IMG/VR virus record: IMGVR_UViG_3300032006_001933
Location: 1-58,779 of that record
DNA: 58,779 nucleotides
Origin: a virus
Reading direction: 5' to 3' (one strand)
Below the pieces are notes generated by a model. The model saw only the letters and a program-made list of their open reading frames with translations. It was not told the origin of the DNA and made no database searches. The position numbers were made by a program, and so were the translations under genes. Shown here piece by piece: positions 9,806-56,427 of the stretch; within the stretch, counting starts at the first letter, position 1; each line of letters begins with the position of its first letter.

Positions 9806-10658
9806 TTTTTTTACTATGAAATGGTAATAAATTTTTTAAATTATATTCAGTATCATACGACAAATTATAAGATTTTAATATCTTGTTTAAAATACTAATT
9901 AATTCAGGTCTATCGTTATATGCGGCATTCGTGTATTCATTTGGTGTGCTAAATCGACCACTCATTAAATCTATTTCATATTTTATATGAAAATCACATG
10001 TAAGCATTGATGTATTTTCTATATCATTATCTATAAAATCATCATATTCGTATACACCATCTATTAAATTGTACATATTCCAAGTATAAAATTTTATAAA
10101 AAATTTTACATAATTTTTTATAACATTAGAAAAAACACTTTTACATTCCTGCATACTAGGTTTAGTAAAATCTACATTCAATGGTGCTGTATTTGGAGGT
10201 GCCATACTCATACGTAATATATATGTTTTTAATTCACTCATTGCTGTCTTTAAAAGATTTCGTCTATATAAAGTTATAATTTTAACATAACTAGATTTTT
10301 CCGAACGCAATTCTTTCATTACATCTACATTTAATATATCATATGCTCCTGGAAAATATTTTAATACAAATGGTTTATCATCATTTGCTAATTCTCTAAA
10401 CATTGACGCATATTGCCACCTTTTACTAAAAAATTCAATATCCTCATTAACCCTTTTCTGGTCTTCTTCTTTCAGTTTAAGTTTTTGAAGTTTAGTTAAA
10501 TATTTTTCAATTTCAATTTGCTTACCATTTAATAATTCCCATGGCAACTCTCTCCGATATCCATGTTTATTTTTTTGATAAGAAGATATAATATTACATG
10601 CATAAGAAGACCGAGACCTAGGATGGCACAATATTAAAATTTTATTATTTTTTAACAT
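9798..10658 (-). CDS. Sulfotransferase-like P-loop protein
   Basis: 286 residues. The first 20 residues read NNKILILCHPRSRSSYAC, a P-loop of the PxSGSS/PRSxSS type seen in sulfotransferases. About residue 130 there is VKIITLYRRNLLKTAMSEL, in the position and shape of the 3'-phosphate-binding segment (LxRRN...S). The rest is helical with an acidic C-terminal half. It is the third sulfotransferase-like domain of the cassette and lies between two radical SAM genes, overlapping both (8 and 14 bases). Diverged nucleotide-binding proteins can look similar, so activity is not assured. Confidence 0.6.
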   Translation of the reverse strand: MLKNNKILILCHPRSRSSYACNIISSYQKNKHGYRRELPWELLNGKQIEIEKYLTKLQKLKLKEEDQKRVNEDIEFFSKRWQYASMFRELANDDKPFVLKYFPGAYDILNVDVMKELRSEKSSYVKIITLYRRNLLKTAMSELKTYILRMSMAPPNTAPLNVDFTKPSMQECKSVFSNVIKNYVKFFIKFYTWNMYNLIDGVYEYDDFIDNDIENTSMLTCDFHIKYEIDLMSGRFSTPNEYTNAAYNDRPELISILNKILKSYNLSYDTEYNLKNLLPFHSKKNE

Positions 10659-11856
10659 CTAACATATCTGCTAAATGGGGGAAAGACGTAGTAAAATCTT
10701 CATTCCTGATCTTATCTAGCTTTTTTATTTCTTTTATTCCTGACGATTCCCAATAGTGGCTATCATCACTAGAATTCATAGTAGATATTACGGCATCCCA
10801 TACGTACTTATGATTTTTTATATCTACATTTTTTGACTTTAACCAAGATATATGATTTGTCAATTTTTCAGTTGTTTTTTCTTTTAATTTTTTCGGTAAT
10901 ACTTTTACTGAAAACCATCTAGGATGAATTAAACATTGAGTATAAAATGATTCATAATTTTTAATAATTCCCTTTTCAAATAAATCTTTTTGTAATTCCG
11001 GTAAACTCCATACATTCCAAAATGCTACACAAGTAGATATATGAAGTGTTACGCTAGGTACTGATACATATTGCTTGGCTGTAAAAATTACATTATTATA
11101 TTCTGCCGGATGGCGTATATAATTTAATTCGGAACCAAACCCATCAATACTTGATTGCATATAAACATCATCAAATTTAGACCATAATTCTAATATATCC
11201 CAATTTTTATGTTTAAGTTGAGTAGTATTGCTATTATATCTTATTCTAGGTTTTACTCCCAATTCTAATAATTTTTCTAATAATATATAATGCTCATCCA
11301 TAACCAAAGGTTCGCCACCAGCAAAGTATATTTCTTCACATGTTTCTAAATATGAAAATACCTCATTTAACATACTAGCATTTAATTTATAAACTGCTGG
11401 TGATCGATTAAGTTCTTTTGCCCATTGGCTACTAAAAGTAGGACCACACATTCTACATTTTAAATTACATATATTACTAAATCTAATATCTATATACCTC
11501 ATATTAAAATCATTTACAGTACCATCAGATAACGTAGAATGTACATCATTTAAATCATTTTGGTATTTTGAATTAAAATCTAAACGAAATGGTCTTCCTC
11601 CGGCATCTTCTTTTTCATAACACCAAGAACAACTTTTATGTCTTATATCCTTTAACATATCAAGTCTAATTTCTTTTAATTTTGGAGAATTCCATAATTC
11701 TTTTAAAGGAGTTTCTTTTACATTTCCTAAATATGAAGTTGAATCATTTATTAAACAACAAGGAAACACATCTCCTTTTGGGGTAACATGTAAATGAGAC
11801 CATGGGGCCATACAAAAAGATTTACTATTTTCAATAAATTTTTTATCTATCATCAT
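10645..11856 (-). CDS. Twitch-type radical SAM protein
   Basis: 403 residues, the most compact of the cassette's radical SAM proteins and closest to the SPASM/twitch pattern known from bacteria. FCMAPWSHLHVTPKGDVFPCC (residues about 14-34) is followed by LKELWNSPKLKEIR and CSWCYEKED. The triad CNLKCRMCGPTFSSQW starts near residue 128, and IYFAGGEPL lies near 180. The tail reads KLDKIRNEDFTTSFPHL. The WNSxxxxxxR segment between cysteine blocks is the usual SPASM spacer, found here before rather than after the barrel. It overlaps neighbours by 14 bases on both sides. Confidence 0.9.
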   Translation of the reverse strand: MMIDKKFIENSKSFCMAPWSHLHVTPKGDVFPCCLINDSTSYLGNVKETPLKELWNSPKLKEIRLDMLKDIRHKSCSWCYEKEDAGGRPFRLDFNSKYQNDLNDVHSTLSDGTVNDFNMRYIDIRFSNICNLKCRMCGPTFSSQWAKELNRSPAVYKLNASMLNEVFSYLETCEEIYFAGGEPLVMDEHYILLEKLLELGVKPRIRYNSNTTQLKHKNWDILELWSKFDDVYMQSSIDGFGSELNYIRHPAEYNNVIFTAKQYVSVPSVTLHISTCVAFWNVWSLPELQKDLFEKGIIKNYESFYTQCLIHPRWFSVKVLPKKLKEKTTEKLTNHISWLKSKNVDIKNHKYVWDAVISTMNSSDDSHYWESSGIKEIKKLDKIRNEDFTTSFPHLADMLDVKK

Positions 11857-13270
11857 TTACAAAGGTATCTAAAGTTGCCGGATCACCTTGGGCTTGAATA
11901 CTTTCTTTATCTAAATTATAAGGTATACTATCATACCACTCTACAAAACTAGGAAAACATAATCTAAAATTTCTATTTCGTCTAATATCATATTGTTCAT
12001 AAAATGCTTTAAAATCATTATATAATTTTGGTATTTCGGCAGTATCTCTATGAGGTGTTTTTACTACATCTAAATAATCAATAAGACGTTGTACATGTGC
12101 TTGTTCACCATCCGATAATACATTACGTTTAGTTGGTAACCAATTTTCTAATTTAGTTTTAAAGGTATTTTTTAATGACACAGGTATTATTGCACAACTC
12201 TGAAAACTTGGAAATCGTAATATATTTAAAGTCATTGTGGGAGCTTTTACGCCAAAATGTTCTCTTAATAATAACATATCGTCCATAAACTCGGTTATAG
12301 ATTCTAAGCATAATGCATTTATAGTCATCATCATATGCATTTTTTGAATATTGCTTTCGTTTAATAATCTTACTAAATTTTTTCGCCATACATTATACTT
12401 CATACCATACCTTATATATTCACTTTGTATTCCAATACTTTCATTGCTGGTATAAATTTCAAAATGAGGTACATTAAAACTTGCTTTTAGCAATTTCTCA
12501 AATGTTTCTTCTTTATCAGGTACTAAGTTACTATTCATGGCAAAACGCATTTTACTTTCAGGGTGTTTTTTAAACCAATCAAATAATTTCCAGACGCTCT
12601 TATGAACTAAAGGTTCGCCGCCAGTAATTCGTATCTCTTCTAAATTATTACCTAATGAATGGTCCCACCATTTCCAAAATGCTTGAATATACGGATTATC
12701 TTCTTCATCATTCGATGCTCTAGCCGCCCAAGGGGCAGTATCTGTAAAATGTCCTCGCCCATCACTTATTATGTTTTTATACGGTCCATTTGTTTTAATA
12801 TCTTTAACCCATGTACTACTAAATGCAGGGTTACAATAACTACATGCAAAATTACAAGCTCTATCAAATGCAATTTCTAAAGTTTTAAGATCAACATCTG
12901 TATCCCATGGTTTATTTGGTATGTCAAGTACATCTTCATCTTTAAAAATTTCTGTTTTATATACTCTATCACTAATGTTATTGCGATTTATATCTTCTAC
13001 TTTCCAGCAATACTCACACTCTTGTGGCCGTTTACCTTCCAACATCATTTTACGCATTTCTTTTTTATGTTTGGTATTATGAATTGCAGTAAAATTTATC
13101 GCTAATTCTTCTTTAGGAATCCAATGAGCAGGAGGATGGTGGCAACTTGTGGTTTGGCCATGACCTAGCCATATAGTTGCATTATACCATTTTGCGGCAC
13201 AAAAACTAGGACTAATTTTATCTATTATTCTAGTTTTATAATTCTCGAGTGATTCGTTGGGCTTTCTCAT
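11843..13270 (-). CDS. Twitch-type radical SAM protein, histidine-rich subgroup
   Basis: 475 residues. It belongs to a subgroup of three in this cassette (with those at 13236 and 15529), marked by SCHHPPAHWIP instead of the FPCC block, then CEYCWKVED. The triad CNFACSYCNPAFSSTW starts near residue 138, EIRITGGEPL lies near 220, and NPYIQAFWKWW precedes it. The tail is DIRRNRNFRLCFPSF. The Cys-His-His-Pro-Pro block may supply iron-sulfur ligands. Its start overlaps the upstream paralogue by 35 bases. The three paralogues probably arose by duplication inside the cassette or were acquired together. Confidence 0.88.
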   Translation of the reverse strand: MRKPNESLENYKTRIIDKISPSFCAAKWYNATIWLGHGQTTSCHHPPAHWIPKEELAINFTAIHNTKHKKEMRKMMLEGKRPQECEYCWKVEDINRNNISDRVYKTEIFKDEDVLDIPNKPWDTDVDLKTLEIAFDRACNFACSYCNPAFSSTWVKDIKTNGPYKNIISDGRGHFTDTAPWAARASNDEEDNPYIQAFWKWWDHSLGNNLEEIRITGGEPLVHKSVWKLFDWFKKHPESKMRFAMNSNLVPDKEETFEKLLKASFNVPHFEIYTSNESIGIQSEYIRYGMKYNVWRKNLVRLLNESNIQKMHMMMTINALCLESITEFMDDMLLLREHFGVKAPTMTLNILRFPSFQSCAIIPVSLKNTFKTKLENWLPTKRNVLSDGEQAHVQRLIDYLDVVKTPHRDTAEIPKLYNDFKAFYEQYDIRRNRNFRLCFPSFVEWYDSIPYNLDKESIQAQGDPATLDTFVNDDR

Positions 13271-14741
13271 ATAATTTTTCTAATTCTGGAAATGTTTTTT
13301 TAAAATTTAAATTTCTGCGTTTATCTATTTCTTTAAAATACAAATAAAAATTTTTTAGTTCTATATCATTCGGTAAATCTTGTTTAATTAAATCTATATT
13401 TCTTTCTAATTTTTCTATTTCATATTTTTTAAAACCATGCCCTGTTTTATGGTAATCTTCTTGTTCAACATTATCTTTCATAAATTTTAAACAATCATTT
13501 AATATAGGTAATAAACTTTTATCTTGAGCAATAACGGTTGCATTTAACCATTTAGGATGATCAAGCATAGGTATATCAAACCAAATACGTTGTTTGGATT
13601 TAATAATCACTGGAGGATGCTTATATTCGCCTCTATCAGGAGGTTGTATTTTTAATTCTTTTTGTTTATCTTTACCAAATTTAATTCTTAAATCTAGAAT
13701 TAATTGTAAAAAGTCTTTTAATTTTGGAATGCTTAGTAGATTAAAAGTATTTATGAAGCATATTTCTGATGTAATAGTATTTTCTAAAAAGTTATGTATA
13801 TTATCTAATAGTATATTATAATTCAAAGGATATCGTATATATTCGGCTTGCTCACCAACTGAATCTAAACTAACAAATAATGAAAAATGTTTGCAACTTG
13901 CACCAACAAAATTATTATTATTATATTCTTTATTAATTTTATTTGGGTCTTCCCACCATCTTATTTGTTCTATTTTTTTAATTTTATTAATAAATCTATT
14001 AATTATTTTATTATCAGGCGGACATAAATTTGATGTTATACTTAACTCTAAATCTGTATTAGGATTTTTAATTACATAATCTAAAATTTTATAAGTGTTA
14101 TTATCTATTAAAGGTTCGCCTCCAGTCATTCTAAATACTTTTAGAGTTTTATATAAATCAGGCCACCAATTCCAAAATGCTTTAACATAAGGATTATCAT
14201 CATTAGAACTTTGAAATGGCATGTCTAAATATTGTGTATCATTATGTTTTATATTAGATAGTTCATATGGCCCACACTCCTTTATTTCTTTTTCCCAAGT
14301 GGTACTTAAATGTGGAGAACAATATACACATTTAAAATTACATGCTTGATTAAAATTTACTTCTACATACCTAGGTAAAATAGTATCTGTGTTTTTTATT
14401 TCATTCCAACCATCTTGTGCCCACCATTCGGCCGACCTATAATGTCTATCGCTTAAATGTCCTGCATCTTCTATTTTCCAACAATATTCACATTCGCTAG
14501 GTCGCTCCCCGGTTAACATTTTTTGTCGTTGGACTTGTTTGTGCTTTGTATTATGTAATGCACCAGGAGCTTGTTCTAGTTCTGTTAGTGGAATCAATCG
14601 TGCAGGAGGATGAAAACAACTATGGGTTTTTCCATTAGGTAAATGTAAACTAACTTGAAACCATTTAGCCATACACATAGACGAAGATATCTTATCTAAT
14701 TTGTTTTTAGTTTCATTAATATCATCTATATAATAAGTCAT
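13236..14741 (-). CDS. Twitch-type radical SAM protein, histidine-rich subgroup
   Basis: 501 residues. SCFHPPARLIPLTELEQAPG and CEYCWKIED form the first cysteine region. The triad CNFKCVYCSPHLSTTWEKE starts near residue 133, and NPYVKAFWNWWPD then FRMTGGEPL follow near 215-240. The tail is EIDKRRNLNFKKTFPEL. It is more similar to the 15529 gene than to the 11843 gene (LEQ.PGALHNTKHK and SPHLS.TW are shared). The ATG overlaps the aminotransferase-like stop as ATGA. The order radical SAM, aminotransferase-like, radical SAM within two coupled overlaps suggests consecutive steps on one substrate; this is inference. Confidence 0.88.
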   Translation of the reverse strand: MTYYIDDINETKNKLDKISSSMCMAKWFQVSLHLPNGKTHSCFHPPARLIPLTELEQAPGALHNTKHKQVQRQKMLTGERPSECEYCWKIEDAGHLSDRHYRSAEWWAQDGWNEIKNTDTILPRYVEVNFNQACNFKCVYCSPHLSTTWEKEIKECGPYELSNIKHNDTQYLDMPFQSSNDDNPYVKAFWNWWPDLYKTLKVFRMTGGEPLIDNNTYKILDYVIKNPNTDLELSITSNLCPPDNKIINRFINKIKKIEQIRWWEDPNKINKEYNNNNFVGASCKHFSLFVSLDSVGEQAEYIRYPLNYNILLDNIHNFLENTITSEICFINTFNLLSIPKLKDFLQLILDLRIKFGKDKQKELKIQPPDRGEYKHPPVIIKSKQRIWFDIPMLDHPKWLNATVIAQDKSLLPILNDCLKFMKDNVEQEDYHKTGHGFKKYEIEKLERNIDLIKQDLPNDIELKNFYLYFKEIDKRRNLNFKKTFPELEKLYEKAQRITREL

Positions 14742-15544
14742 ATTATTTTTTGTGCAACAATTATTCTTTCATCCTTATTAAATCCCATTAAAATATTATC
14801 ACATTCGGTTAAATTATTTTTTTTACATACATCAGAATACGTATTACCAAATGTATTCCAGTTATAATCAACATCATATTCATGAATAAGCTCATTAGCA
14901 ATACCTATATTAATTCTACTAAACATTTCTATACCTGAACTGTTAAAAACATCTATTCCATCATCAATATTTTCTTTTTGCATTCGGACACCAATTCGTA
15001 AATATTCTGCACCATAACAAAATTTTGATAAACTAAATGCTAATGTTTCAATACATTTGTATTTGGTTAAGTCAATGTCTATATTCCTAGCAATAGGTAA
15101 ATGAGCAAAATCTAATAATACTGGTATTTGTAATTCTTCACATTTATCTAAAATACCAAACATGTCGGGATGAATTTTTCCTTTTCTAGTATACGGAACA
15201 CTTATAATAAAAGCATCATACGAATTAATATAATCATCTTCAATGAATTTATAGTTAAGTTTATGCTTACATACTGCTTTATGATACATAAATTCGCCTT
15301 TAAAAAACCTAAATCGTTTTTCATAGTATTGAAGATAAAAATGGTCAAATATTTGAATAGAACCATTAGATAGAGATATAGAATTAAATTTATCTAACCC
15401 TTCTATTGTGTTTAATTTAGAATTTGAAATCCAATTAACAAAATTTTTTTTAAATTTATCAGGTAAATCGTTATCATACAAATTTACATGTTTTAAAAAT
15501 TTTGTTAAATCTATACTTTTAATACCTTCTAGCCTTGCTTGCAT
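14738..15544 (-). CDS. Short PLP-dependent aminotransferase-like protein (fold type I)
   Basis: 268 residues. AFIISVPYTRKGKIHPD, then IPVLLDFAHLP (the Asp that pairs with the PLP ring nitrogen, about residue 143), then ETLAFSLSKFCYGAEYLRIG (candidate Schiff-base Lys near residue 174, followed by the Arg-Ile-Gly strand) are the ordered core motifs of class I aminotransferases. The usual length is 350-420; here both the small N-terminal domain and the C-terminal domain look shortened, and no Gly-rich phosphate loop is obvious. It may act as a heterodimer partner, use a reduced reaction, or be decaying. It lies between two radical SAM paralogues with 4- and 16-base overlaps. Confidence 0.6.
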   Translation of the reverse strand: MQARLEGIKSIDLTKFLKHVNLYDNDLPDKFKKNFVNWISNSKLNTIEGLDKFNSISLSNGSIQIFDHFYLQYYEKRFRFFKGEFMYHKAVCKHKLNYKFIEDDYINSYDAFIISVPYTRKGKIHPDMFGILDKCEELQIPVLLDFAHLPIARNIDIDLTKYKCIETLAFSLSKFCYGAEYLRIGVRMQKENIDDGIDVFNSSGIEMFSRINIGIANELIHEYDVDYNWNTFGNTYSDVCKKNNLTECDNILMGFNKDERIIVAQKII

Positions 15545-17181
15545 AAATTGTAAAACTCCTTATATTCTGGAAATATTTTTAAAAAATTAGTATTCCGCCT
15601 TTTATCTAACTGATCAATATATGAAATAAAATTTTTTCTTTGGATAATATAATTATTCTGTCCGTAAATTTTATCTTCCATATATCGTATATTGCGTTGA
15701 AATTTTTCTATTTCAAAATCTGCAAAACCTACCAAAGAAGACGTATTTTTAATTGAATTTTCTTTCATAAAATATTCTGCATCCCACATATATTGAAGGA
15801 AATCTTTTGTACAAATATCTACAGACAACCAATTAGGATTTTCTAAAATAGGTAAATCAAACCATATCATTTGTCTGTCTCTAAAACCATTATATTTTTG
15901 TCTTAATTTTAATATAAATCTAAGATATTCTTGTATAGAAGATATAGATAAAATATTAAAAGTGTTTATAAAAGACATACTACACGAATATAACCAAAAA
16001 TTGTATGTAAATTCATATTCATATCCAATAACTTCTGAAGGCAATTTATCAATAACTCCTTTTTCTCCTATTTCTGATAACGTAGTTATATCATCAAATG
16101 TTTTTTTACCTACTATGTATTCTTTCCACAATAATTTACCATCTTTATCGTGTGAAGGTGTTCCGTCTTCTGGATCTTCAACAAACACAGTTGCTGGTTT
16201 TTCATATAATTTTAAAAATTTATCAATATTAGTTTTTATTTTCCCCCAATCCATACCAGAACGAATGTACTCGGCTTTTTTACCTATTGAATCTAAACTT
16301 ACAAAAAGCATAAAATGTTTTAATGATTTTACTCGTTCTAAATTAAATAATTTATCAATAAATTTATCTATAAGTTTATCATCAGCAGGAGAAAAATTGC
16401 TAGTTATGCCCATTTGCAATTTTTTATTTTTATATTTTAATGCATAATCTAATACTTTATATGTATCTTTATGCATTAAAGGCTCCCCTCCGGTCATTCG
16501 AAAATAATGCAAATTATCATAGATATCAGGAAGCCATTTCCAAAATGCTTTTACATAAGGATTATCCTTTTTCTTTACTTTATTTTCTTTACGTACCTCA
16601 AATGGTAATTTTTCTTGCTGTTCTAAATATCTTATATCATTGTGTAAATGATCTACTTCCGTTATTGTTGTTGAGTGATTAAATTTTTTACCTAAAGTTT
16701 TTAGTTTAAAAGGTCCAAATTCTTCTATTTCTTCATACCATGTACTACTTAGATGAGGTGAGCAATATATACATTTTTGATTACATGCATGACTAAAATT
16801 AATTTCTAAATAGGCTGGTTTTACATTAAAATTATATTCATTATCAGTTATATAATCATAATTTTCAACTGCCCATTCTTCTGATGATTTGTATACCCGA
16901 TCACTTATTTGTTTAGAATTGTTTAGTTCTTCTATTTTCCAACAATAGTCGCAACCAGATGGTTTTTTACCAAGTACCATTTGTTTGCGTTCTGCTATTT
17001 TAAATTTTGTATTATGCAACGCACCAGGATCTTGCTCTAATTCTTCTAGTGGAATTTTATGGGCAGGAGGATGATAACAACTTTGTGTAAGACCGTGAGG
17101 TAAATGTATTTGGACATACAACCATTTTGCTAAACAAAAAGTAGGAGATATATCATCTAATAATTTTTTTACATCATTCAA
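15529..17181 (-). CDS. Twitch-type radical SAM protein, histidine-rich subgroup (TTG start)
   Basis: 550 residues, the largest of its subgroup. FCLAKWLYVQIHLPHG, SCYHPPAHKIP and CDYCWKIEE precede the triad CNQKCIYCSPHLSSTW near residue 132; FRMTGGEPLMHK follows near 235. The tail reads QLDKRRNTNFLKIFPEY. Relative to the paralogue at 13236 it carries extra segments of about 20-40 residues, around residues 165-205 and 310-370. The start appears to be TTG at 17181, behind a GAGAAG-type ribosome site inside the upstream gene's end; no in-frame ATG lies close by. The weak start may keep expression low. Confidence 0.85.
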   Translation of the reverse strand: MNDVKKLLDDISPTFCLAKWLYVQIHLPHGLTQSCYHPPAHKIPLEELEQDPGALHNTKFKIAERKQMVLGKKPSGCDYCWKIEELNNSKQISDRVYKSSEEWAVENYDYITDNEYNFNVKPAYLEINFSHACNQKCIYCSPHLSSTWYEEIEEFGPFKLKTLGKKFNHSTTITEVDHLHNDIRYLEQQEKLPFEVRKENKVKKKDNPYVKAFWKWLPDIYDNLHYFRMTGGEPLMHKDTYKVLDYALKYKNKKLQMGITSNFSPADDKLIDKFIDKLFNLERVKSLKHFMLFVSLDSIGKKAEYIRSGMDWGKIKTNIDKFLKLYEKPATVFVEDPEDGTPSHDKDGKLLWKEYIVGKKTFDDITTLSEIGEKGVIDKLPSEVIGYEYEFTYNFWLYSCSMSFINTFNILSISSIQEYLRFILKLRQKYNGFRDRQMIWFDLPILENPNWLSVDICTKDFLQYMWDAEYFMKENSIKNTSSLVGFADFEIEKFQRNIRYMEDKIYGQNNYIIQRKNFISYIDQLDKRRNTNFLKIFPEYKEFYNLCKQG

Positions 17182-40664: not shown

Positions 40665-43600
40665 TTAATAATAATTACTTCCGCCTGAACTAGAACTAGA
40701 ACCTGTACCTGTTGCGACTCCTGTAATACTTGTTGTTGCTGTTGGAGTTTCAACAAGTCCTGCGGCAATTCTCATATTTGTCTCAGTATATGAATCGACT
40801 ATATCAACATCTGATACCTTTGCGGCACTAACAAAAAGTTCATGAGCATTAGGTGTAACCTGAAACATATTACCAAACCTAGAATCTGCATTTGTTGGGA
40901 CAATTACTAATGAAGAAATTATACCTATCATATTTCTATGAATAAATGCGGCAAGTTCTGTAAAATAAAATGTTTCGCCAAAATCCCAATTATCAGGTTC
41001 AAAATAATCATCAACATAATCTACTATTGTTGCTTTTATTTCATTATCGGTTAAGTTTGTTATTGGATTTTTAACCACTTTAAATTTTGCTTGTAATGCA
41101 TAATCCGCTTCTGTACCAAATAAAATTTTATATTCACAAGATTTATAAATTATTGTATCAGAAGATGTTTTTGCATCTTCTAATGCTATAAACATTGTTT
41201 TTAAATCTTCTGTAGTATGTGGCAATGGCTTATATTTTGCTCGTCTATCATTTTTCAGCCAATTTCTAAACTCAGTATTATATGTATTTGTTAATACGAA
41301 AGTATCTATAATATTTGTAACCGCTGGATCAATTCGTGTTTCTTCACTAGCGGCATGCTTCCATTTAAATCGTACTCCCGATCTACCTGTATATTTTGCA
41401 TAAATCAAATCTCTAATATAAGACCATTTAGATGTATCAGTCGGTAAAACACCCAAGTTACCTGTAACTTTAGATTGATATTCTGCACCATTATATTCTA
41501 TTTTATCAGCTAATTCATAAGACGTAGACGATACCCAATATTTTATAGAACCATCTGCATTTGTCGGAGGCGGAGTAGCCATTAATGTTTTATATACATA
41601 ATTGTCTACTAATTCATCTGCAACATAAATTTCATTTGATCCTACAATACTATCAAAAGCAAACGGATCGTCAATAACAAAATCTTTATTAGTATCTGCA
41701 AATTTTAATAATACTCTGCGTGGGTCTGTATAACCATCGTCATATGTATAAAATCCTTCAATATCAAAATCATAATTTGCAGTTAATAATGATGTACCTA
41801 ATCCTCCACCAACAGTTGTGAGCGGTTGTAAATTAATATCTAATATTCTAATTTCGTCCTTTGTAGATTTTTTTGTAATTTTACTAACTTTATTATCTAA
41901 TCGTTGGTTAAAAAATCTAACATTTTTTATTGAGCCAAAATTATATTTTATAGCCCTTGCCAAAAACACCCATTGTTCTGTTTGGAATTCTACTCTCATT
42001 AAATAACTATTATCCGATTGTGTTCCTGCGGTACTTTCAGTTAGACTAAAAGCAGTAGATTCTGATTCTCCTAAATCGATACCTAATATAACTTCATATT
42101 TGTTATTTCTATGATCCCATCGTATACCAAATGAATTATTAAGTTCTAATTGATCTTTAATTGCTGTAATTTCAGTTGCACTAAATTTATTATTATATGC
42201 AGGTGCTATACGTTTTATTCTAACATTATTTGGTATATTTCTTGATAATGATACAGTACCATATTCTTCTTTAGTTTTACCTGTGTAACCTAATGCAGAA
42301 CTTGTAACTCCTCTACCATCTCCATATATTCCAGTTATACTTGCCCAAGTAGTTGACGATCCTGTTACAAAATTACCGTTAGTATCCACTTCTGCGAATT
42401 CTATATTTGCACCTTCAACTAAAAATTTACCTATTGAATCCGACGAATCTTTACCTATAGCAACTATATCAGGAGTAGTAGCACCTTTTTCAAAATAACC
42501 AGTTGCTTGTCTAGCAGAACCTGTTACTTTTTTCCAAGTCCACATTTTTGCGGCTAATGCAGGAGTTGCTTCGTCTGACGTTGTAAAATGTAAATCATCT
42601 CCTGTTGTACTACCTGACCAAACAAAATCATTTTTATATTTTTGATAATAAAAGTTTTGTACTTCAGATTCTTCTAAATATGGTTGTAAGTATTGCTCAA
42701 TAATATCTGTTGGATTTAACGGAGTAGGTAATGTTAATGTTTTTCGTAAAAATGTTTCTTCTTTAAAAATATATCCATCATCACCAAAAATAGTTAAATC
42801 TTTATATGTTCCTGTCGGGTCGTTAATATCAACATAACGTGTATGACCACTATGTACTCTATTTGTACTTTTAATTTTTGTAATATTTGTAGATGCTTGC
42901 AATGGATAAACTGCATAATCTTGTGCTGATACCATTCTATTTTGAGTACTGTACACCTGTGGTGCTTTAGATTGTATACTAGTATTTGATTCTGTTAAGG
43001 AACTATTTTTTATAGGTTCTTCTAAATCTAGTGTAACAACTAAATCATATAATTGCAAATCATGCTTACTAAAATAAGGTACAGTAATTTCTATATCTCG
43101 AATATCGTCAGCTCTAATTGTATATTCTTCACCATTTCCTACTCTATACCAAATACGTATAATACCTTTAGGTGCATTACCAAATCTACCATCAGCAAAT
43201 TTAACACTAATTGCATCTTCTGCATTAGTAACTACTTGAAAAATATCTCGAATATTATTATCGACTGCATTAAAAATAACATTTGATCCTACTACTGTAT
43301 CTACTGGAGTCCACGTTGTTACTATTTGTCCTGTTTGATCAATAGTTTGAACCCATACATCATCATTAACAATATTTGATGTTGTTATATCTATAACTTG
43401 ATTTTCAATTGGTCTTGAAATTAACGTGTCTTTAAATTCTATAGAACCTTGCTTAAAATAAAAGAAAAATCCTGTTTTAGCACTAGCATTCCCTTTTCCA
43501 TCATTAAGGTACAAACATCGCATAGCAGAATTAGGATCTGGATATGGTTCAAATAAACCTAATGTTCCATCCACATCAACATTTGTTATTTCAAATGGTA

Positions 43601-44222
43601 TAGATTCTCCTTGCACATTACCAGCAAAAGTATGAGTCACATTTTGTTGTGTTTGCGAATTCATTTTATAAATTTCAGTTTTAACACCATCTATTGTTGC
43701 CGCTTTAAACGGGGTACCAAATTGTGTCGTACTGCCAAATGCAGAATTCATTATCATTAAAAATTGTTCATATGCATTTGCATTTGTAGAATCATTCCAA
43801 GTAATATCAGTGTTCAGTAAATTATTACCATCCGAATCAATTAATGCTTCTGTTGTTCTTATTGTTTTAATTTTTAACACACCACTTGAATTTATACTTC
43901 TAGTAGGATTATATCCGAGGAACCTGGCTAATCTTAATATCGAATCTCTACTTTGAGCAGTTTCCATAAAATTTTCACGAGTAGCAAAATCTGTTCTAAA
44001 CGCTAAATTATGGCCCATAAAGGCTATTAAATCCATCAAACTAATAAATTCAGATGATTGGATCCAATCATTATAATCTTCTGGGTAGTTTAATCTTATA
44101 TAATCTACCATTGCCGCTTTTAAAGTATCAAAATCATATGCTTGAAAATTAGATTGAGCAAATGATTGGTATTTTGCTATATAATCTTCTGCGGCAAATA
44201 AAACATCTTGTCGTGTAGCCAT
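40665..44222 (-). CDS. gp6: Baseplate wedge protein gp6-like
   Basis: 1185 residues. The first 130 residues (RQDVLFAAEDYIAKYQSFAQ, PEDYNDWIQSSEFISLMDL, AFRTDFATRENFMETAQ, LRLARFLGYNP) are the hallmark of gp6/gpJ baseplate wedge proteins. T4 gp6 has 660 residues; marine relatives are longer, owing to beta-rich insertions in the middle. The gene lies 4 bases after gp25, as expected from the physical wedge core. It ends in a Gly/Ser-rich tail (TGTGSSSSSGGSN). Its role is to form the iris-like ring around the tail hub that opens upon sheath contraction. Confidence 0.92.
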   Translation of the reverse strand: MATRQDVLFAAEDYIAKYQSFAQSNFQAYDFDTLKAAMVDYIRLNYPEDYNDWIQSSEFISLMDLIAFMGHNLAFRTDFATRENFMETAQSRDSILRLARFLGYNPTRSINSSGVLKIKTIRTTEALIDSDGNNLLNTDITWNDSTNANAYEQFLMIMNSAFGSTTQFGTPFKAATIDGVKTEIYKMNSQTQQNVTHTFAGNVQGESIPFEITNVDVDGTLGLFEPYPDPNSAMRCLYLNDGKGNASAKTGFFFYFKQGSIEFKDTLISRPIENQVIDITTSNIVNDDVWVQTIDQTGQIVTTWTPVDTVVGSNVIFNAVDNNIRDIFQVVTNAEDAISVKFADGRFGNAPKGIIRIWYRVGNGEEYTIRADDIRDIEITVPYFSKHDLQLYDLVVTLDLEEPIKNSSLTESNTSIQSKAPQVYSTQNRMVSAQDYAVYPLQASTNITKIKSTNRVHSGHTRYVDINDPTGTYKDLTIFGDDGYIFKEETFLRKTLTLPTPLNPTDIIEQYLQPYLEESEVQNFYYQKYKNDFVWSGSTTGDDLHFTTSDEATPALAAKMWTWKKVTGSARQATGYFEKGATTPDIVAIGKDSSDSIGKFLVEGANIEFAEVDTNGNFVTGSSTTWASITGIYGDGRGVTSSALGYTGKTKEEYGTVSLSRNIPNNVRIKRIAPAYNNKFSATEITAIKDQLELNNSFGIRWDHRNNKYEVILGIDLGESESTAFSLTESTAGTQSDNSYLMRVEFQTEQWVFLARAIKYNFGSIKNVRFFNQRLDNKVSKITKKSTKDEIRILDINLQPLTTVGGGLGTSLLTANYDFDIEGFYTYDDGYTDPRRVLLKFADTNKDFVIDDPFAFDSIVGSNEIYVADELVDNYVYKTLMATPPPTNADGSIKYWVSSTSYELADKIEYNGAEYQSKVTGNLGVLPTDTSKWSYIRDLIYAKYTGRSGVRFKWKHAASEETRIDPAVTNIIDTFVLTNTYNTEFRNWLKNDRRAKYKPLPHTTEDLKTMFIALEDAKTSSDTIIYKSCEYKILFGTEADYALQAKFKVVKNPITNLTDNEIKATIVDYVDDYFEPDNWDFGETFYFTELAAFIHRNMIGIISSLVIVPTNADSRFGNMFQVTPNAHELFVSAAKVSDVDIVDSYTETNMRIAAGLVETPTATTSITGVATGTGSSSSSGGSNYY

Positions 44223-47266: not shown

Positions 47267-48193
47267 ATGATACTGATAACAGGTAATGCAAACACAAAAC
47301 TTTCTACTGATATTGCTAATATTGCCGACGTCGATTTATGTGAAACTCTAGTAACTAGATTCGCTGACAACGAAATATGGGTAGAAATAAAAGATAACAT
47401 TCGTGGTGAAGATGTCTTCATCATCCAAAGCACATGCAATCCCGCCAACGATAACTTAATGGAACTATTAATAATGGTTGATGCTTGTAAAAGAGCAAGT
47501 GCAGGTCGAATTACGGCTGTGATACCTTATTATGGTTATGCTAGACAAGACAGAAAGCCAGCAGGACGATCCCCTATTAGTGCAAAACTTGTTGCTAATA
47601 TGTTAGAAGCGGCAGGAGTAGATCGTATGCTAACAATGGATTTACATGCAGGTCAAATTCAAGGCTTTTTTGATATTCCGGTAGATAATTTATATGCTCA
47701 ACCATTGTTTGTTAAAGATTTAAAAACAAGTCCAATGGTAAAAAGTAGTAATGCTATTATTGTTTCACCAGATGCAGGTGGGGTTCCTAGGGCAAGAGCT
47801 GTAGCAAAACAATTAGATTTAGATATTGCAATTATAGATAAGAGACGAGACAGGGCCAATGAGTCCGAAGCAATGAACGTCATAGGAGACGTAAAGGGGA
47901 AGCAATGCATCATCGTCGACGACATAATAGATACAGGTGGGACTTTAGTAAAAGCCGCACAAGCATTGATAAGCGAAGGCGCCGAAGAAGTGGAAGCCTA
48001 TATAACACACGGTGTATTAAGCAAAGGCGGAGCTCAGAGGATGGAAAAATCAGCTCTGAGTAGATTAGTAATAACTGATACTATTCCTGCACCTGAAAAT
48101 AATGTACTAAAAGTTATCTCAGTTGCGAATATATTTGCAGAAGCAATTCGCAGGGTACATCATGATGAATCTATATCAGTATTATTTGATTAA
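47267..48193 (+). CDS. prs: Ribose-phosphate pyrophosphokinase (PRPP synthetase)
   Basis: 308 residues, the full length of bacterial Prs. It converts ribose 5-phosphate and ATP to PRPP, the precursor of nucleotides, NAD and some amino acids. Visible motifs: RFADNEIWVEI near residue 30; IPYYGYARQDRK near 88; TMDLHAGQIQGFF near 125; SPDAGGVPRARAVA near 168; KRRDRANE near 196 (flexible catalytic loop); and the PRPP-binding loop IIVDDIIDTGGTL near 213-225. All key residues seem intact. Phage-borne prs is known in some large T4-like phages, usually read as boosting nucleotide supply. No nadV or other NAD-salvage gene is in the window. The stop abuts the next ATG directly. Confidence 0.95.
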   Translation: MILITGNANTKLSTDIANIADVDLCETLVTRFADNEIWVEIKDNIRGEDVFIIQSTCNPANDNLMELLIMVDACKRASAGRITAVIPYYGYARQDRKPAGRSPISAKLVANMLEAAGVDRMLTMDLHAGQIQGFFDIPVDNLYAQPLFVKDLKTSPMVKSSNAIIVSPDAGGVPRARAVAKQLDLDIAIIDKRRDRANESEAMNVIGDVKGKQCIIVDDIIDTGGTLVKAAQALISEGAEEVEAYITHGVLSKGGAQRMEKSALSRLVITDTIPAPENNVLKVISVANIFAEAIRRVHHDESISVLFD

Positions 48194-51230: not shown

Positions 51231-52100
51231 TTAGCGAATAAGAAGAAACGAAACTGCAATAATAACTGAGCAAAGAAAAACAACAAAAGTATAATATGTT
51301 ACTAAGGGAGTTTTAAAATACATTTTACCTATAATGAAACATTTATGAACAGGACTTAGCATATAGCCTGCATAATCTATAGCGAAAAACATAGGAAGGT
51401 ATTGGACACCAAATATACTTGTAAGAATAGCAGTAAATGCCGCAAACCTTGCAGAAGATCCTAATAAAAAACTACCAGCAAATCCTATCCAAGCACCTGT
51501 TACAAGTGACCAATCATTATTTTCGATATATGCTTTAATTTCATTTGTATAAGATTTAATATAATTACCTAAAACAATAACCAAAAATAATGCTATTAAT
51601 AGTTTCCAATTAACCCATTCTACTGTAACTTCTTTTTGTTTAGGATTAGTCCAGATTACATCTTGTTCTTTTAAAAAATAAAATACCAAAAACAATGGAA
51701 GAACTATTGCAATCATTGCAAGAGGTCCCATTATATACATAAATTCTACATACGTTAATCCTAAAACTGCCATAGGTATAATAACAGATTTTTCTAAAGG
51801 AGACCACAAATAATAATGATGTGTACTAAGATAATCTATAATGCCATACCATTTACGTCTAGAATCTTTAGGTGCCATTGTATCTAAAATACCAGCAGAT
51901 ACAGATACCCTTCCAGGTATAGGTAATACACCGCATACAGCACTAACTATTACAATAAACAATCTATTTGATTTTATATATTTGCTTAAAAAATTTAGAA
52001 CATGATACACATACCCATTACGTTGCACATAAGCCGATGCAATCATAATTCCTGCAAGGTATAAAATATACCATTGATTATTAAATATTATTTCTAACAT
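51231..52100 (-). CDS. DUF401-like membrane permease
   Basis: 289 residues with about eight hydrophobic segments (first at residues 8-24, last at 265-287). The motif region VLPIPGRVSVSAGILDTMAP, followed by YGIIDYLSTHHYYLWSPLEKSVIIPMA, follows the conserved pattern of DUF401 integral membrane proteins (P-x-PG...SA...Y...W...P). Their cargo is not known; they are distantly related to anion and organic-acid permeases. The length is below the usual 400, so the C-terminal half is abbreviated. The ATG overlaps the upstream gene end by 20 bases. In a phage it is probably an auxiliary metabolic gene that changes uptake or efflux during infection. Confidence 0.65.
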   Translation of the reverse strand: MLEIIFNNQWYILYLAGIMIASAYVQRNGYVYHVLNFLSKYIKSNRLFIVIVSAVCGVLPIPGRVSVSAGILDTMAPKDSRRKWYGIIDYLSTHHYYLWSPLEKSVIIPMAVLGLTYVEFMYIMGPLAMIAIVLPLFLVFYFLKEQDVIWTNPKQKEVTVEWVNWKLLIALFLVIVLGNYIKSYTNEIKAYIENNDWSLVTGAWIGFAGSFLLGSSARFAAFTAILTSIFGVQYLPMFFAIDYAGYMLSPVHKCFIIGKMYFKTPLVTYYTFVVFLCSVIIAVSFLLIR

Positions 52101-52809
52101 GAGATTCGTATAATTTCTTAATTAAATTTCTAGCATACTGAAATGAGAAAAAATTTAAATATTCTCTCTTTTTAAGCCATAGCTCATCATTTTTATTCTT
52201 ATCTCTAACTATAAAATTATATGATTTTTCTGTGAGAGGTATTAATTGTGCAATTGGAGTTCCTGCTTTAATCATAGTAGATCCTATAAGTTGATTCCAG
52301 TATCCTTGAATATTTATTTCTGTACTATAACCTGGATCTAATATACCTATACAACTTTCAAATATAATGTGATCAGTATAAGGCATAGGTATCATTAAAA
52401 ATTTTACATCTTTGGGTGCTATAACATGCCATGGCGTATTTATTTTAACTATATCCGGACGACTCCATGGTCGCTTAGGCAAATGTTTTGCTATGCTATT
52501 ACCATCTTGTACTCCAATTGTATCTTTTCCTAACAAGGTATTAATTTGTTTATCTGGTACTGTTATTCCCTTGCCTGTTATTTCTACATCATGCCACATA
52601 GACACAATATAACCGGTCGTAAACAAATGGAAAATACCAGGACACCTAGTTACATGCTGAAACCCTGGTCCGACATTCTTTTGTGCAATTACAAAATCTT
52701 TTCGTGCATCATTTACCCAAGGCGGTATAACTTCCTTTGCTTGCTGTATAGGAAATGCTTCTGTTACACCCTCAATGGATGAAAAAAATTCAATAGTCTT
52801 CTTGCCCAT
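52081..52809 (-). CDS. Conserved phage/marine protein of unknown function
   Basis: 242 residues, no membrane segment. TEAFPIQQAKEVIPPWVNDAR, VTRCPGIFHLFTTGYIVSMWHDV and LIPMPYTDHIIFESCIGILDPGYST stand out. These recall a family of marine phage and bacterial proteins often encoded next to 2OG-Fe(II) oxygenases, but I cannot give a function. Late strands (GYWNQLIGSTMIKAGTPIAQLIPL) look like a jelly roll, with His and Asp residues scattered. It overlaps the oxygenase gene upstream by 20 bases and the permease gene downstream by 20. Confidence 0.65.
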   Translation of the reverse strand: MGKKTIEFFSSIEGVTEAFPIQQAKEVIPPWVNDARKDFVIAQKNVGPGFQHVTRCPGIFHLFTTGYIVSMWHDVEITGKGITVPDKQINTLLGKDTIGVQDGNSIAKHLPKRPWSRPDIVKINTPWHVIAPKDVKFLMIPMPYTDHIIFESCIGILDPGYSTEINIQGYWNQLIGSTMIKAGTPIAQLIPLTEKSYNFIVRDKNKNDELWLKKREYLNFFSFQYARNLIKKLYESHVRNNI

Positions 52810-53404
52810 CTGTTAAAAATTGTACTTTAAAACTTATATTAAATGCTATATTAATTCGTTGTTTATCTGAATGATTTGGACCTACATCATGTGGTACCCA
52901 TCCTGGAAACACTAGTAAATCTCCTTCCTTTGGTTCGTATGTCATAACTGAAGCCCATGGTGCTGTTGCATGACAATTTTCAGTTAAATTAGCAGGATTG
53001 TAACATGCAAGTTCTCCTGTGCCTTCTACTTGCAAATAATAAACTGCCGCATATTGTATTGCTTGATGACTATGTAAAACATTCCTACTTCCAGGTTCAT
53101 TTATATTTGTCCAATAAGTTAAGTCCAATTCACCTTGTTGTTCTAATTTACTAGGATATGTAGGATCGTCGATTTTGTAATATTGCATTGCCTCGTCTGT
53201 TACTTCTTGCAATTCGTCAAAGAACCATTCAAAGTTTTTATATACAAAAGTTGATCGCCAACATCCATCATTTGTATACTTCATAAAATATGGTTCGTGC
53301 TCTTTAACCCATAAAGCCTGCTTTATTAACTCGTTACGTTGTTCAACTGTACCTACATTATTTTTAACGAACATGTCTGCTCTATGTAAAGGAAATCTAT
53401 TCAT
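52790..53404 (-). CDS. 2OG-Fe(II) oxygenase (TIGR02466-like)
   Basis: 204 residues from the ATG at 53404, five bases past the upstream stop; an in-frame TTG at 53428 is an alternative. Double-stranded beta-helix motifs: YWTNINEPGSRNVLHSHQ (candidate ligand His111/His113), VYYLQVEGTGEL, then LLVFPGWVPHDVGPNH (His172) and RINIAFN (Arg183, 2-oxoglutarate). This is the pattern of the small oxygenases common in marine T4-like phages. The substrate is unknown; family relatives hydroxylate protein or small-molecule targets. A second oxygenase gene is directly upstream. Confidence 0.85.
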   Translation of the reverse strand: MNRFPLHRADMFVKNNVGTVEQRNELIKQALWVKEHEPYFMKYTNDGCWRSTFVYKNFEWFFDELQEVTDEAMQYYKIDDPTYPSKLEQQGELDLTYWTNINEPGSRNVLHSHQAIQYAAVYYLQVEGTGELACYNPANLTENCHATAPWASVMTYEPKEGDLLVFPGWVPHDVGPNHSDKQRINIAFNISFKVQFLTDGQEDY

Positions 53405-53408
53405 ATAA

Positions 53409-53960
53409 TTACCATACTTGACTATCAAAATAATTATAATTTATAATTATTCTTGTTTTTTTATCCGAACATGATGCACCCGAATGCTCAGTGTCTCCTG
53501 AAAATTTAACAAATCTATTTGCAATACTGTCTATCTTAGTTACCTTGGTTCCATCTTTAAATGTTGTGTATCCATTATTAGTATTGACATAAAGAATAGC
53601 AGATGTCCATTGTGCAGATTTAATTGGATTACTTTTAATATCTCCAATATCAGTATGAAAGGGACTTGAGATTGTTTTGGGTGTTCTAGGATATAAATGA
53701 GCTGACATATTTCTTATAGAAACAGGTTCAGTTCTTTCTACTATCGGACCAAAAATATCTTTAGTACACATAGGAGATGTTATTATAAAATCTTCATATA
53801 TACTATGAGAAAAATGATAATAATTTGCATAGTCGTGTTCTAATTCTTTTCTGTCGACCCAAAACCCTACATAAAACCACGGAAATGGTTTATCCATAAT
53901 TAATTCATATAAATTTTTAAATTCTTGTTTTGGAAGAAAATTATCAATTACTCTATACAT
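53409..53960 (-). CDS. 2OG-Fe(II) oxygenase
   Basis: 183 residues. SPFHTDIGDI gives His102 and Asp104 of the iron site; FSGDTEHSGASCSDKKTRIIINYN gives the distal His159 and Arg170, the 2-oxoglutarate anchor. The distance between them (about 55 residues) is usual. The start VIDNFLPKQEFKNLYELI is typical of prolyl-hydroxylase-like phage oxygenases. The start ATG shares one base with the stop of the U32/methyltransferase fusion (TAATG). The two adjacent oxygenases share only the general fold by eye and probably have different substrates. Confidence 0.88.
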   Translation of the reverse strand: MYRVIDNFLPKQEFKNLYELIMDKPFPWFYVGFWVDRKELEHDYANYYHFSHSIYEDFIITSPMCTKDIFGPIVERTEPVSIRNMSAHLYPRTPKTISSPFHTDIGDIKSNPIKSAQWTSAILYVNTNNGYTTFKDGTKVTKIDSIANRFVKFSGDTEHSGASCSDKKTRIIINYNYFDSQVW

Positions 53961-55669
53961 TATTCTTTAATTACTACAACTATATATAACCCATTCCACC
54001 ATTGGCTTGAATCTTCTATTTTATTAAGCATTTTTTTAGAATACATTGGAGTCAAATTAGATTGTTTTATACCTTCGTCTGCTCCCTCTACTACACCTTC
54101 CCAATTAGCATCATCAAACACTAAAATACATACATCTGCAAAACAATCTTTATAATACTTTACTGCTTCTTGTACTTTATTTGCTTCATGCGGACCATCA
54201 TGAAAAAATAAATCTATATTTTTAATTTTAGAAGTATCTACTTCATAGATATCCGAATCATGAATTATTACTTCTTTATTGCATTCGTTTATATGTTTTA
54301 AAAATAAATCTTTAGTATTATCTGGTAACTCAAATTCATCTGATTCTGGTTGGATATTTATAGACCAATTATCTACACAATGTATTTCTTCTAACTTATC
54401 CGATACACTTACTGTAACATGACCAAAGCCACTTCCTATTTCTAAAAATCTTTTACAATGTTTAGATAATCCATACATGAGTGTTTGTATTCGAGATGAA
54501 GTTAACCCGTCAGAAGGTACAGTTGAATGATAATTAACAGATTGTACTAATTCATGCGTGACTGCTAAAACTAAAGGATGCGCCTGTTCGTTTGATTTTG
54601 CTTCATATACTTGATCACAATAGTTACAATCCCAACAATCAAATTTACAATTTTTTATTTTTTCACGCCATAACTTTATAGGTTTACTATTATCGACAAA
54701 CGATAATTCTTTTCTACCTGCAGGACCATACCAATCAAAACTATCATATAAAAATTCTTCATTATTTGCATATCGTTTAATTATATCCATAGTTTCATAT
54801 ACACGAGCATTAGATTCTCGCCCATGCATTTTAAATACTTGAACATAATTTAATAATTCATCCCAGTCTTCTTTCCATGGAGGAATATCTGCTGTTTTTA
54901 ATGGTGTTGACGGATCTTCATAATCCCATTTAGGACACGATACTCTAGATATAGGATCATTAAAATATTGTGGAGCACTTTCAAAACTGCCCTTTGATCG
55001 TCTTGCTAATCTATGTTGTTGATCATCTTTAATAACACCAGACATATTCATTCTTGAATTATTAAAATGATAATGCTCGTCCATCATAGGACAATTACCT
55101 AAACAGCCTTCGTTACCTAATAACGATAGCACAACATCATATTTGTCGGCGGCTTGTTTCATTCTAATTAATGTGTCTCTATCCCGCATTAAATCACGAT
55201 CTATATTAATATAATGGAACCCTGCTTCTGCTAGTTTTGCTATTTCATTTGGGCGTGTAACATTTCTTAATATAGTATTTTTAACAAGTAAGTCTGGAAA
55301 TGCTTTTTGTATTTGTCCTGTAGCCATCCAATGTGTATGAGGTATTGTAGCAATTCGTACACCTGATTCATATAATTGTGCAAAATTTTGTATAAAAAGA
55401 TCTAAGTTTTGTTGGGTAGGTTTAACTTGTATATTATTAAATGTAGCAGATATTTTAATCCCTAACTGTTCTTGCATATGTAATGCATTCTCAACTGGCC
55501 CATAAGGATCACTTACAATAACATCGCCCATTGCATCTTGAATAAACGGCGGCATTCTACAAGTAAAATATAAATCATAAATTAAATCTTTATATTCCCT
55601 GCAAAAATTAAAAAAATCATGAAATTCTGGTTCAGTTAATTTAGGATTAATTGGTATAGAAAAAATCAT
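53960..55669 (-). CDS. Fusion of U32-peptidase-like Fe-S protein and class I methyltransferase
   Basis: 569 residues. Residues 1 to about 360 form a TIM-barrel-like U32/UbiV-type module: AEAGFHYINIDRDLMRD, then LLGNEGCLGNCPMMDEHYHFNN (Cys189, Cys193), SCPKWDY (Cys245), and a second group Cys341, Cys345, Cys348 and Cys351. U32 relatives UbiU/UbiV, TrhP and RlhA use four cysteines for a 4Fe-4S cluster and catalyse oxygen-independent hydroxylations. Residues about 400-569 form an AdoMet methyltransferase: FLEIGSGFGHVTV (motif I, 408-420), IHCVDNWS, and IDLFFHDGPHE. I know of no described protein of this arrangement. It is coupled to the 253-residue gene by a 4-base overlap and to the oxygenase genes downstream. 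Confidence 0.75.
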   Translation of the reverse strand: MIFSIPINPKLTEPEFHDFFNFCREYKDLIYDLYFTCRMPPFIQDAMGDVIVSDPYGPVENALHMQEQLGIKISATFNNIQVKPTQQNLDLFIQNFAQLYESGVRIATIPHTHWMATGQIQKAFPDLLVKNTILRNVTRPNEIAKLAEAGFHYINIDRDLMRDRDTLIRMKQAADKYDVVLSLLGNEGCLGNCPMMDEHYHFNNSRMNMSGVIKDDQQHRLARRSKGSFESAPQYFNDPISRVSCPKWDYEDPSTPLKTADIPPWKEDWDELLNYVQVFKMHGRESNARVYETMDIIKRYANNEEFLYDSFDWYGPAGRKELSFVDNSKPIKLWREKIKNCKFDCWDCNYCDQVYEAKSNEQAHPLVLAVTHELVQSVNYHSTVPSDGLTSSRIQTLMYGLSKHCKRFLEIGSGFGHVTVSVSDKLEEIHCVDNWSINIQPESDEFELPDNTKDLFLKHINECNKEVIIHDSDIYEVDTSKIKNIDLFFHDGPHEANKVQEAVKYYKDCFADVCILVFDDANWEGVVEGADEGIKQSNLTPMYSKKMLNKIEDSSQWWNGLYIVVVIKE

Positions 55670-56427
55670 AAATCTATTTTAGGATCGTAATCACCTTCGG
55701 ATTCGCCTGATTCAAGCCATCGTTCTTTGGTCATCCAAAAGCCATATCTTTTACATTGCAAAACATGACAGTCAAGAATTGTACTACATGCTTTTATTTC
55801 GGTTTCTACTTTTTGTTTTTTTGCCAATAATGTTGCCATGTTATCATAATAACCATCAATAGCATTGTTAACTTTTATTACCATATCGGCAACAGATATT
55901 CCTCTTGCTTCTGCTAGTTTTGTTAACAAAGGTGTGCTTGCAGAATTATCAGCAGTATACGCATCTGCTTCTTTGCGTTGTTGGTCCCAAGATAATTGTT
56001 CTATTTGTGTTACATCTAATGTATTTGTTTTTAATCTATGTTCGTAATAACCATCTAAAACAAATCGCATAAAAAATTGTAAAAATTTAACTATGTTTAC
56101 CTTGTCATCATCAGTAAAATAATATTTTACTTTTTCAACGCCTTCTTCTAGATCTTCCATTGAATTACATATTTGCTGAATATGTGGATCAACAGTATCT
56201 CCATCGTCCCCTTTTTTAACACTTGTATGATCTCTCTCAATACCAGCAAACTTATAACATAATGCTACATCTTCTGAAGGTATTACTCTATGCTGTAATC
56301 CGGTAAGAGGTAAAATTTCTGCAATACTATCATCTATTAATGCAATATTATGTCCTTCGTAATTACCAATCCGTTGGATCATGTTCGGTAATTCTTGGCG
56401 TGTTTCTACCTTGTATATTACGTACAT
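55666..56427 (-). CDS. Phage protein of unknown function, possible fibre-associated
   Basis: 253 residues. N-terminal MYVIYKVETRQELPNMIQRIG; a helical middle (KVNIVKFLQFFMRFVLDGYYEHRL); a C-terminal helix run LLTKLAEARGISVADMVIKVNNAIDGYYDNMATLLAKKQ that recalls the DUF4376-like end of tail-fibre-assembly proteins. It ends CKRYGFWMTKERWLESGESEGDYDP. GGAAAAAG lies before the ATG at 56427; an internal ATG at 56382 is possible. It overlaps the coiled-coil gene by 65 bases in another frame, the longest such overlap in this block. Confidence 0.6.
   Translation of the reverse strand: MYVIYKVETRQELPNMIQRIGNYEGHNIALIDDSIAEILPLTGLQHRVIPSEDVALCYKFAGIERDHTSVKKGDDGDTVDPHIQQICNSMEDLEEGVEKVKYYFTDDDKVNIVKFLQFFMRFVLDGYYEHRLKTNTLDVTQIEQLSWDQQRKEADAYTADNSASTPLLTKLAEARGISVADMVIKVNNAIDGYYDNMATLLAKKQKVETEIKACSTILDCHVLQCKRYGFWMTKERWLESGESEGDYDPKIDL

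Follow-up and report, generated by a model that had tools for sequence, protein, structure and literature searches.

A gene carried, without annotation, by hundreds of marine bacterial viruses (PHROG 1458) encodes a single polypeptide in which a divergent relative of the U32 barrel is joined to a class I AdoMet-dependent O-methyltransferase. Both domains are of known kinds, and what appears to be new is their joining in one phage chain. We propose that the protein is an iron-sulphur hydroxylase fused to an O-methyltransferase, the two steps acting on a shared substrate; for both the activity and its coupling, analogy with characterised enzymes leads us to favour this reading, if modestly.

The window analysed here is a 58,779-base virus record from a myovirus-type phage. 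Within it, the fusion ORF runs on the minus strand from an ATG at 55669 to a stop codon at 53960-53962, shares 1-4 bases with each flanking ORF in the style of a phage operon, and lies opposite a plus strand that has stops throughout in the same frame. An earlier note had described this ORF as a U32-like module fused to a methyltransferase, and a two-domain make-up of U32-type barrel and class I O-methyltransferase is borne out by an AF2 model, by structure matches, and by a match to PF13578. The model has a mean pLDDT of 82.6, with low confidence at the cysteine-rich linker (residues 339-351) and at a loop (residues 210-237); its residues 1-290 match U32 Mk0906, and residues 376-569 match O-methyltransferases. 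Features of the gene and its surroundings are collected in Table 1.

Table 1. Features of the fusion gene and of its immediate neighbours, in window coordinates.
Feature	Position	Strand	Remarks
Two-domain fusion ORF, 569 aa	53960..55669	minus	PHROG 1458 / T4-GC 354; phrog_1458 E 1e-143
Eight-stranded U32-like TIM barrel, residues 1-290	54800..55669	minus	AF2; 5d88 best solved match
C189-x3-C193 in NEGCxGxC, after strand 7	55091..55105	minus	Invariant; aligns with archaeal NxxCx3CP
C245, third barrel cysteine, ahead of strand 8	54935..54937	minus	Invariant; aligned with archaeal and coliphage Cys
K280-M-H-G-R284, after strand 8	54818..54832	minus	Counterpart of U32 K-I-E-G-R; K280, G283, and R284 invariant
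Second cysteine group, C341-x3-C345-x2-C348-x2-C351	54617..54649	minus	Invariant; counterparts in archaeal and coliphage branch
Class I AdoMet methyltransferase domain, COMT/TrmR fold, residues 376-569	53963..54544	minus	PF13578 and structure matches
AdoMet-binding motif I LEIGSGFG, residues 409-416	54422..54445	minus	G412 invariant, E410 and G416 nearly so
D491, candidate metal site partner of D519-D520-x-N522	54197-54199	minus	Invariant in alignment
D519-D520-x-N522, candidate divalent-metal/catalytic site	54104..54115	minus	Invariant in methyltransferase alignment
Upstream neighbour, T4-GC 353 / phrog_1604	55666..56427	minus	4-base overlap; in 36/44 related loci
Downstream neighbour, probable 2OG-Fe(II) oxygenase (phrog_274)	53409..53960	minus	HxD...H...R; 1-base overlap
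2OG-Fe(II) oxygenase (PF13759)	52790..53428	minus	E 1e-18; relative in 22/44 related loci

The family is widespread among marine phages. Matches occur in 123 Synechococcus/Prochlorococcus phage records, with coverage of at least 80% in every one, and a relative is encoded in no fewer than 586 IMG/VR stretches. Cyanophage annotations place it in cluster T4-GC 354, which is labelled "hypothetical" in all records inspected and for which a literature search returned no paper; likewise, the literature searched describes neither a U32-methyltransferase fusion nor any cyanophage U32 relative. Selection on the two halves is purifying (dN/dS of ~0.02-0.25 for pairs with unsaturated dS). Among 84,980 species genomes, a scan limited by the peptide patterns used gave two matches and no convincing cellular case: both matches sit with phage neighbour genes on the same contigs and are, therefore, probably phage contigs in MAGs. 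A search of plasmids for relatives of the barrel found none.

To place the N-terminal half, we relied on structure and profile comparison alone; the barrel matched nothing in Pfam, NCBIfam, or PDB sequences. The AF2 model of residues 1-290 has eight strands in TIM-barrel order. When Foldseek matches were re-aligned (VIA), the U32 protein Mk0906 (5d88) came top (Z 17.4 over 217 residues, rmsd 3.0), and the next barrel was MTHFR (Z 14.2). The same structure has the best target-normalised TM-score among the Foldseek matches listed, and by Foldseek E-value it ranks 7th, behind several MTHFR chains. Pfam U32 (PF01136) did not appear among the families shown for the fusion protein or for 44 relatives, and when the phage barrel was compared directly against canonical U32 proteins by hhalign, the match was weak (14-15%). 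Against a seven-cysteine U32 branch from archaea, the phage barrel aligned at 97.0% (E 1e-10), with the cysteines aligned; this became 97.4% (E 1e-11) with cyanophage rows added and 98.3% (E 2e-14) when coliphage proteins were also added. Given the weak direct match and the missing PF01136 match, the link to U32 runs via this intermediate branch. Hence, the barrel is a divergent U32 relative through the seven-cysteine branch, and not a UbiU/UbiV-type protein as the earlier note had supposed.

The archaeal members of the branch (L209-L213) were obtained by searching one sampled archaeal phylum (Thermoplasmatota) with the Pfam U32 model. They are ~380 residues long, pass the Pfam U32 cut-off, and in a profile comparison score 98% against canonical U32 proteins. 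Each motif follows in the same run: N-x-x-C-x3-C-P after strand 7, a single C, K...R after strand 8, D-N, and C-x4-C-x2-C-G-Y-C. The best NCBIfam match of the branch is TrhP, far under that model's own cut-off, and the neighbours of the archaeal gene, viewed by eye, showed no common pathway. A search with an archaeal protein as query matched 298 phage records (E up to 1), some of them from Synechococcus phages. Among the matches are standalone relatives from enterobacterial T4-like phages, and those examined either belong to PHROG 5757 or lie close to it. PHROG 5757, a "peptidase" by label, occurs in RB69-like, Klebsiella, and Proteus phages; it is ~386 aa long, scores over the PF01136 cut-off, and shares the seven-cysteine layout, with a C-terminal group resembling Cx5Cx3Cx2C. 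The fusion barrel fits the layout of the branch as a whole, namely NxxC...CP/S, C, and Cx3-5Cx2-3Cx2C along a U32 barrel of ~350-390 aa. We know of no member of this branch with a tested activity.

Seven cysteines, C189, C193, C245, C341, C345, C348, and C351, do not vary among 96 distinct homologues with identities down to 40% (two of the columns count 95 of 96, since one alignment stops early). Shuffling the same amino acids produced CxxxCxxCxxC in 7 of 20,000 trials. The canonical four-cysteine U32 motif, CX6CX15-16C..., which binds [4Fe-4S] (PMC6747719), is absent; the fusion has Cx3C, x51, C followed by Cx3Cx2Cx2C. Of the four canonical positions, the barrel appears to retain three and the C-terminal group to stand in for the fourth. 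After strand 8, KMHGR retains the K, G, and R of the U32 K-x-E-G-R motif, with H in place of E. The second cysteine group had been noted before at residues 341-351 as an addition to the usual U32 set; its positions are as described and all four cysteines are invariant in the 96 homologues. The group is no feature of the fusion: archaeal and coliphage proteins that lack a methyltransferase share the layout, so the second group is a mark of the whole seven-cysteine branch.

The C-terminal half is an O-methyltransferase by fold and by family. Residues 409-520 match Pfam Methyltransf_24 (PF13578; E 6.4e-8, over the cut-off), as do 44 of 44 aligned family members; searched alone by sequence against solved structures, this half gave no convincing match. 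By structure, residues 376-569 of the AF2 model align with O-methyltransferases at Z 15-17, including TomG, SafC, COMT, and TrmR. TrmR (5zw3; Z 16.2) is one among many O-methyltransferases with an equal structural score. D433, D491, D519, D520, and N522 are unvarying save where homologue alignments end early, and the last four are candidate metal-site residues, judging from the COMT-type fold.

How might the two halves work together? Characterised U32 proteins bind [4Fe-4S] through cysteines and hydroxylate without O2 (PMC6747719), and those with known roles act on tRNA U34 with prephenate (TrhP), on 23S rRNA (RlhA), and on quinone precursors (UbiUV) (PMC6747719, PMC6599085). By analogy, we suggest that the N-terminal barrel binds iron-sulphur clusters through its seven invariant cysteines: most likely, C341/C345/C348/C351 would hold one [4Fe-4S] cluster and C189/C193/C245 another, in which one iron site is left open. 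Two clusters, one of them with a free iron site, is our preferred reading. As in TrhP, RlhA, and UbiUV, the barrel would then carry out an O2-independent hydroxylation of its substrate, for which prephenate may be the donor, and the COMT/TrmR-type domain would O-methylate the new hydroxyl with AdoMet. The fusion could thus be the counterpart, within one chain, of the pair TrhP and TrmR, which make ho5U and then mo5U in tRNA. Its presumed substrate is either a pyrimidine, whether in nucleic acid or as a nucleotide, or else part of the tail fibre.

Two kinds of substrate were weighed. A pyrimidine in phage DNA, in the nucleotide pool, or in tRNA, which would end as a 5-methoxy-pyrimidine, is a tentative assignment, short of an even chance. 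Kinship with RNA- and DNA-acting enzymes favours it: there is the TrhP-TrmR precedent (PMC6599085), and coliphage members of the branch sit in a 5-hydroxycytosine pathway (PMC13390438). Set against this, no nucleotide-metabolism genes lie near the fusion in the cyanophages inspected, and the gene belongs to a tail-associated cassette. This tail-associated setting favours instead a virion component, with a tail-fibre protein or its glycan being hydroxylated and O-methylated, which we rate as slightly less likely than the pyrimidine. The fusion follows a conserved cassette of phrog_1417 (38/44 loci), phrog_1409 (42/44), and phrog_1604 (36/44). In the window the gene has tail-fibre fragments both upstream and downstream of it; in cyanophage records, proteins annotated as tail fibre lie close by. 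The cassette proteins themselves have no assigned function, and, to our knowledge, no U32 protein acts on protein or glycan.

Downstream of the fusion are a 2OG oxygenase (22/44 loci), phrog_7084 (21/44), and a DUF401-like membrane protein (30/44); all of these neighbour counts are lower bounds, as many contigs end early. In the window, the membrane protein is the ORF at 51231-52100, with a match to DUF401 (transporter-like) at E 2e-9. The ORF that directly adjoins the fusion belongs to PHROG 274, which is labelled DNA endonuclease V, as is the "denV" gene found directly downstream in cyanophages. The ORF in the window has no DenV domain match, carries HxD...H...R, and weakly matches 2OG-Fe(II) oxygenases, so the label looks wrong.

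These adjacent 2OG-Fe(II) oxygenases, whose relatives occur in roughly half of the related loci, bear on a different reading, in which the barrel carries iron-sulphur but is no hydroxylase. It could then catalyse another redox or group-transfer reaction, or act as a partner that presents substrate either to the methyltransferase or to the adjacent oxygenases, with the latter as the hydroxylating enzymes. The coliphage genes point the same way. In Escherichia phage p000v (Mosigvirus), a PHROG 5757-type gene has arabinose-5-phosphate isomerase and phosphoheptose isomerase to one side of it and a thymidylate-synthase homologue to the other, and such a homologue is likewise near the branch gene in Klebsiella and Proteus phages. 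Mosigvirus DNA contains arabinosylated 5-hydroxycytosine, with hydroxylation credited to the thymidylate-synthase homologue, and the available part of that account makes no mention of a U32 protein (PMC13390438). Nevertheless, in the literature searched, the U32 proteins with known roles (TrhP, RlhA, and UbiUV) all take part in hydroxylation, and we consider a barrel with some other role unlikely. As a separate observation, the U32-branch "peptidase" gene of RB69-like phages (L241:4992-6152) lies inside the arabinosyl-hydroxycytosine modification cluster, adjoining the thymidylate-synthase homologue, and may be a missing partner in 5-hydroxy-dCMP formation.

Groups of the form CxxxCxxCxxC also occur in zinc sites. 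The C-terminal cysteines might accordingly form a structural zinc knuckle, with iron-sulphur bound at the barrel cysteines only or nowhere, and the low confidence of the model in this region is compatible with such a knuckle. We find this doubtful: proteins from archaea, coliphages, and marine phages all keep the seven-cysteine pattern, and tested members of the U32 family bind [4Fe-4S] (PMC6747719). Lastly, a sugar isomerase/epimerase-like TIM barrel lacking iron-sulphur, the fold that the earlier note had itself named as the outcome that would overturn its proposal, is very improbable, since weak PF01261 (xylose isomerase-like) matches in 10 of 44 members, all sub-threshold (best E 0.0099), are outweighed by hhalign values of 0.1-0.2% for PF01261 as control against 97% for the U32 branch, by a lead of three Z units for the U32 structure, and by the seven invariant cysteines.

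Several other features of the window deserve mention. About seven radical SAM proteins form an island next to the tail genes on the minus strand (901-17181), an unusual density for a phage. Five of them score over the Pfam Radical_SAM cut-off (three of these with SPASM) and two fall just below; sulfotransferase-like ORFs, along with others of modification type, lie in between. The baseplate wedge protein (40665-44222) has its nearest relatives in large (jumbo) phages of Sinorhizobium and Agrobacterium, and also of Pseudomonas (~37-39% identity); it is not closest to cyanophages, although the fusion gene is common to cyanophages. On the opposite strand, the ORF at 47267-48193 resembles ribose-phosphate pyrophosphokinase (prs), a name given by eye from the translation.

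Returning to the proposed hydroxylase-methyltransferase, the analysis offers a testable function for a "hypothetical" gene that recurs in 123 cyanophage records as well as in hundreds of marine viral contigs. The little-known seven-cysteine branch ties together marine phages, archaeal U32 proteins, and the RB69-like hydroxycytosine pathway, such that one biochemical answer would inform all three. If the proposal is true, this would be a rare single chain that combines O2-independent hydroxylation with O-methylation. In its fullest form, which we put forward only speculatively, it describes a single-chain viral enzyme with two [4Fe-4S] clusters that performs both steps, makes a methoxylated base or tail component new to marine phages, and is carried by a large part of the ocean's T4-like viruses.

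A close functional parallel is in Bacillus subtilis, where one operon encodes TrhP1/TrhP2, both of them U32 proteins, together with the O-methyltransferase TrmR, and the enzymes act sequentially to give 5-methoxyuridine (U34 to ho5U34 to mo5U34; PMC6599085). Like the fusion, this system pairs a U32 barrel with an AdoMet O-methyltransferase of the same fold; unlike it, the proteins are separate, the U32 members are canonical, and the substrate is the tRNA wobble uridine, whereas the phage protein is one chain with a seven-cysteine layout. A hydroxylase joined to an O-methyltransferase does have a precedent, since TrmR is fused to TrhO in three eukaryotes (Phytophthora and Phaeodactylum are examples; PMC6599085), but TrhO is an O2-dependent hydroxylase of the rhodanese family, not a U32 protein. 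UbiU and UbiV share the U32-type barrel and hydroxylate in a [4Fe-4S]-dependent, O2-independent manner, each subunit carrying a cluster (PMC6747719). They differ in having four cysteines (CX6CX16CX38C or CXnCX12CX3C), a heterodimeric state, a quinone substrate, and no methyltransferase. Among members of the branch itself, PHROG 5757 has the same seven-cysteine layout and K-x-x-G-R as the fusion, but it matches PF01136, has no methyltransferase, and resides, next to a thymidylate-synthase homologue, in a cluster of DNA-modification type. The archaeal proteins resemble the fusion in module length and in the seven-cysteine layout, ending in CGYC, yet are without a methyltransferase and only ~20% identical. 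Finally, Methyltransf_24 and COMT-type enzymes (macrocin OMT, COMT, and SafC) share the fold, motif I, conserved D, and DD-x-N of the fusion C terminus, but are free-standing and act mostly on small molecules.
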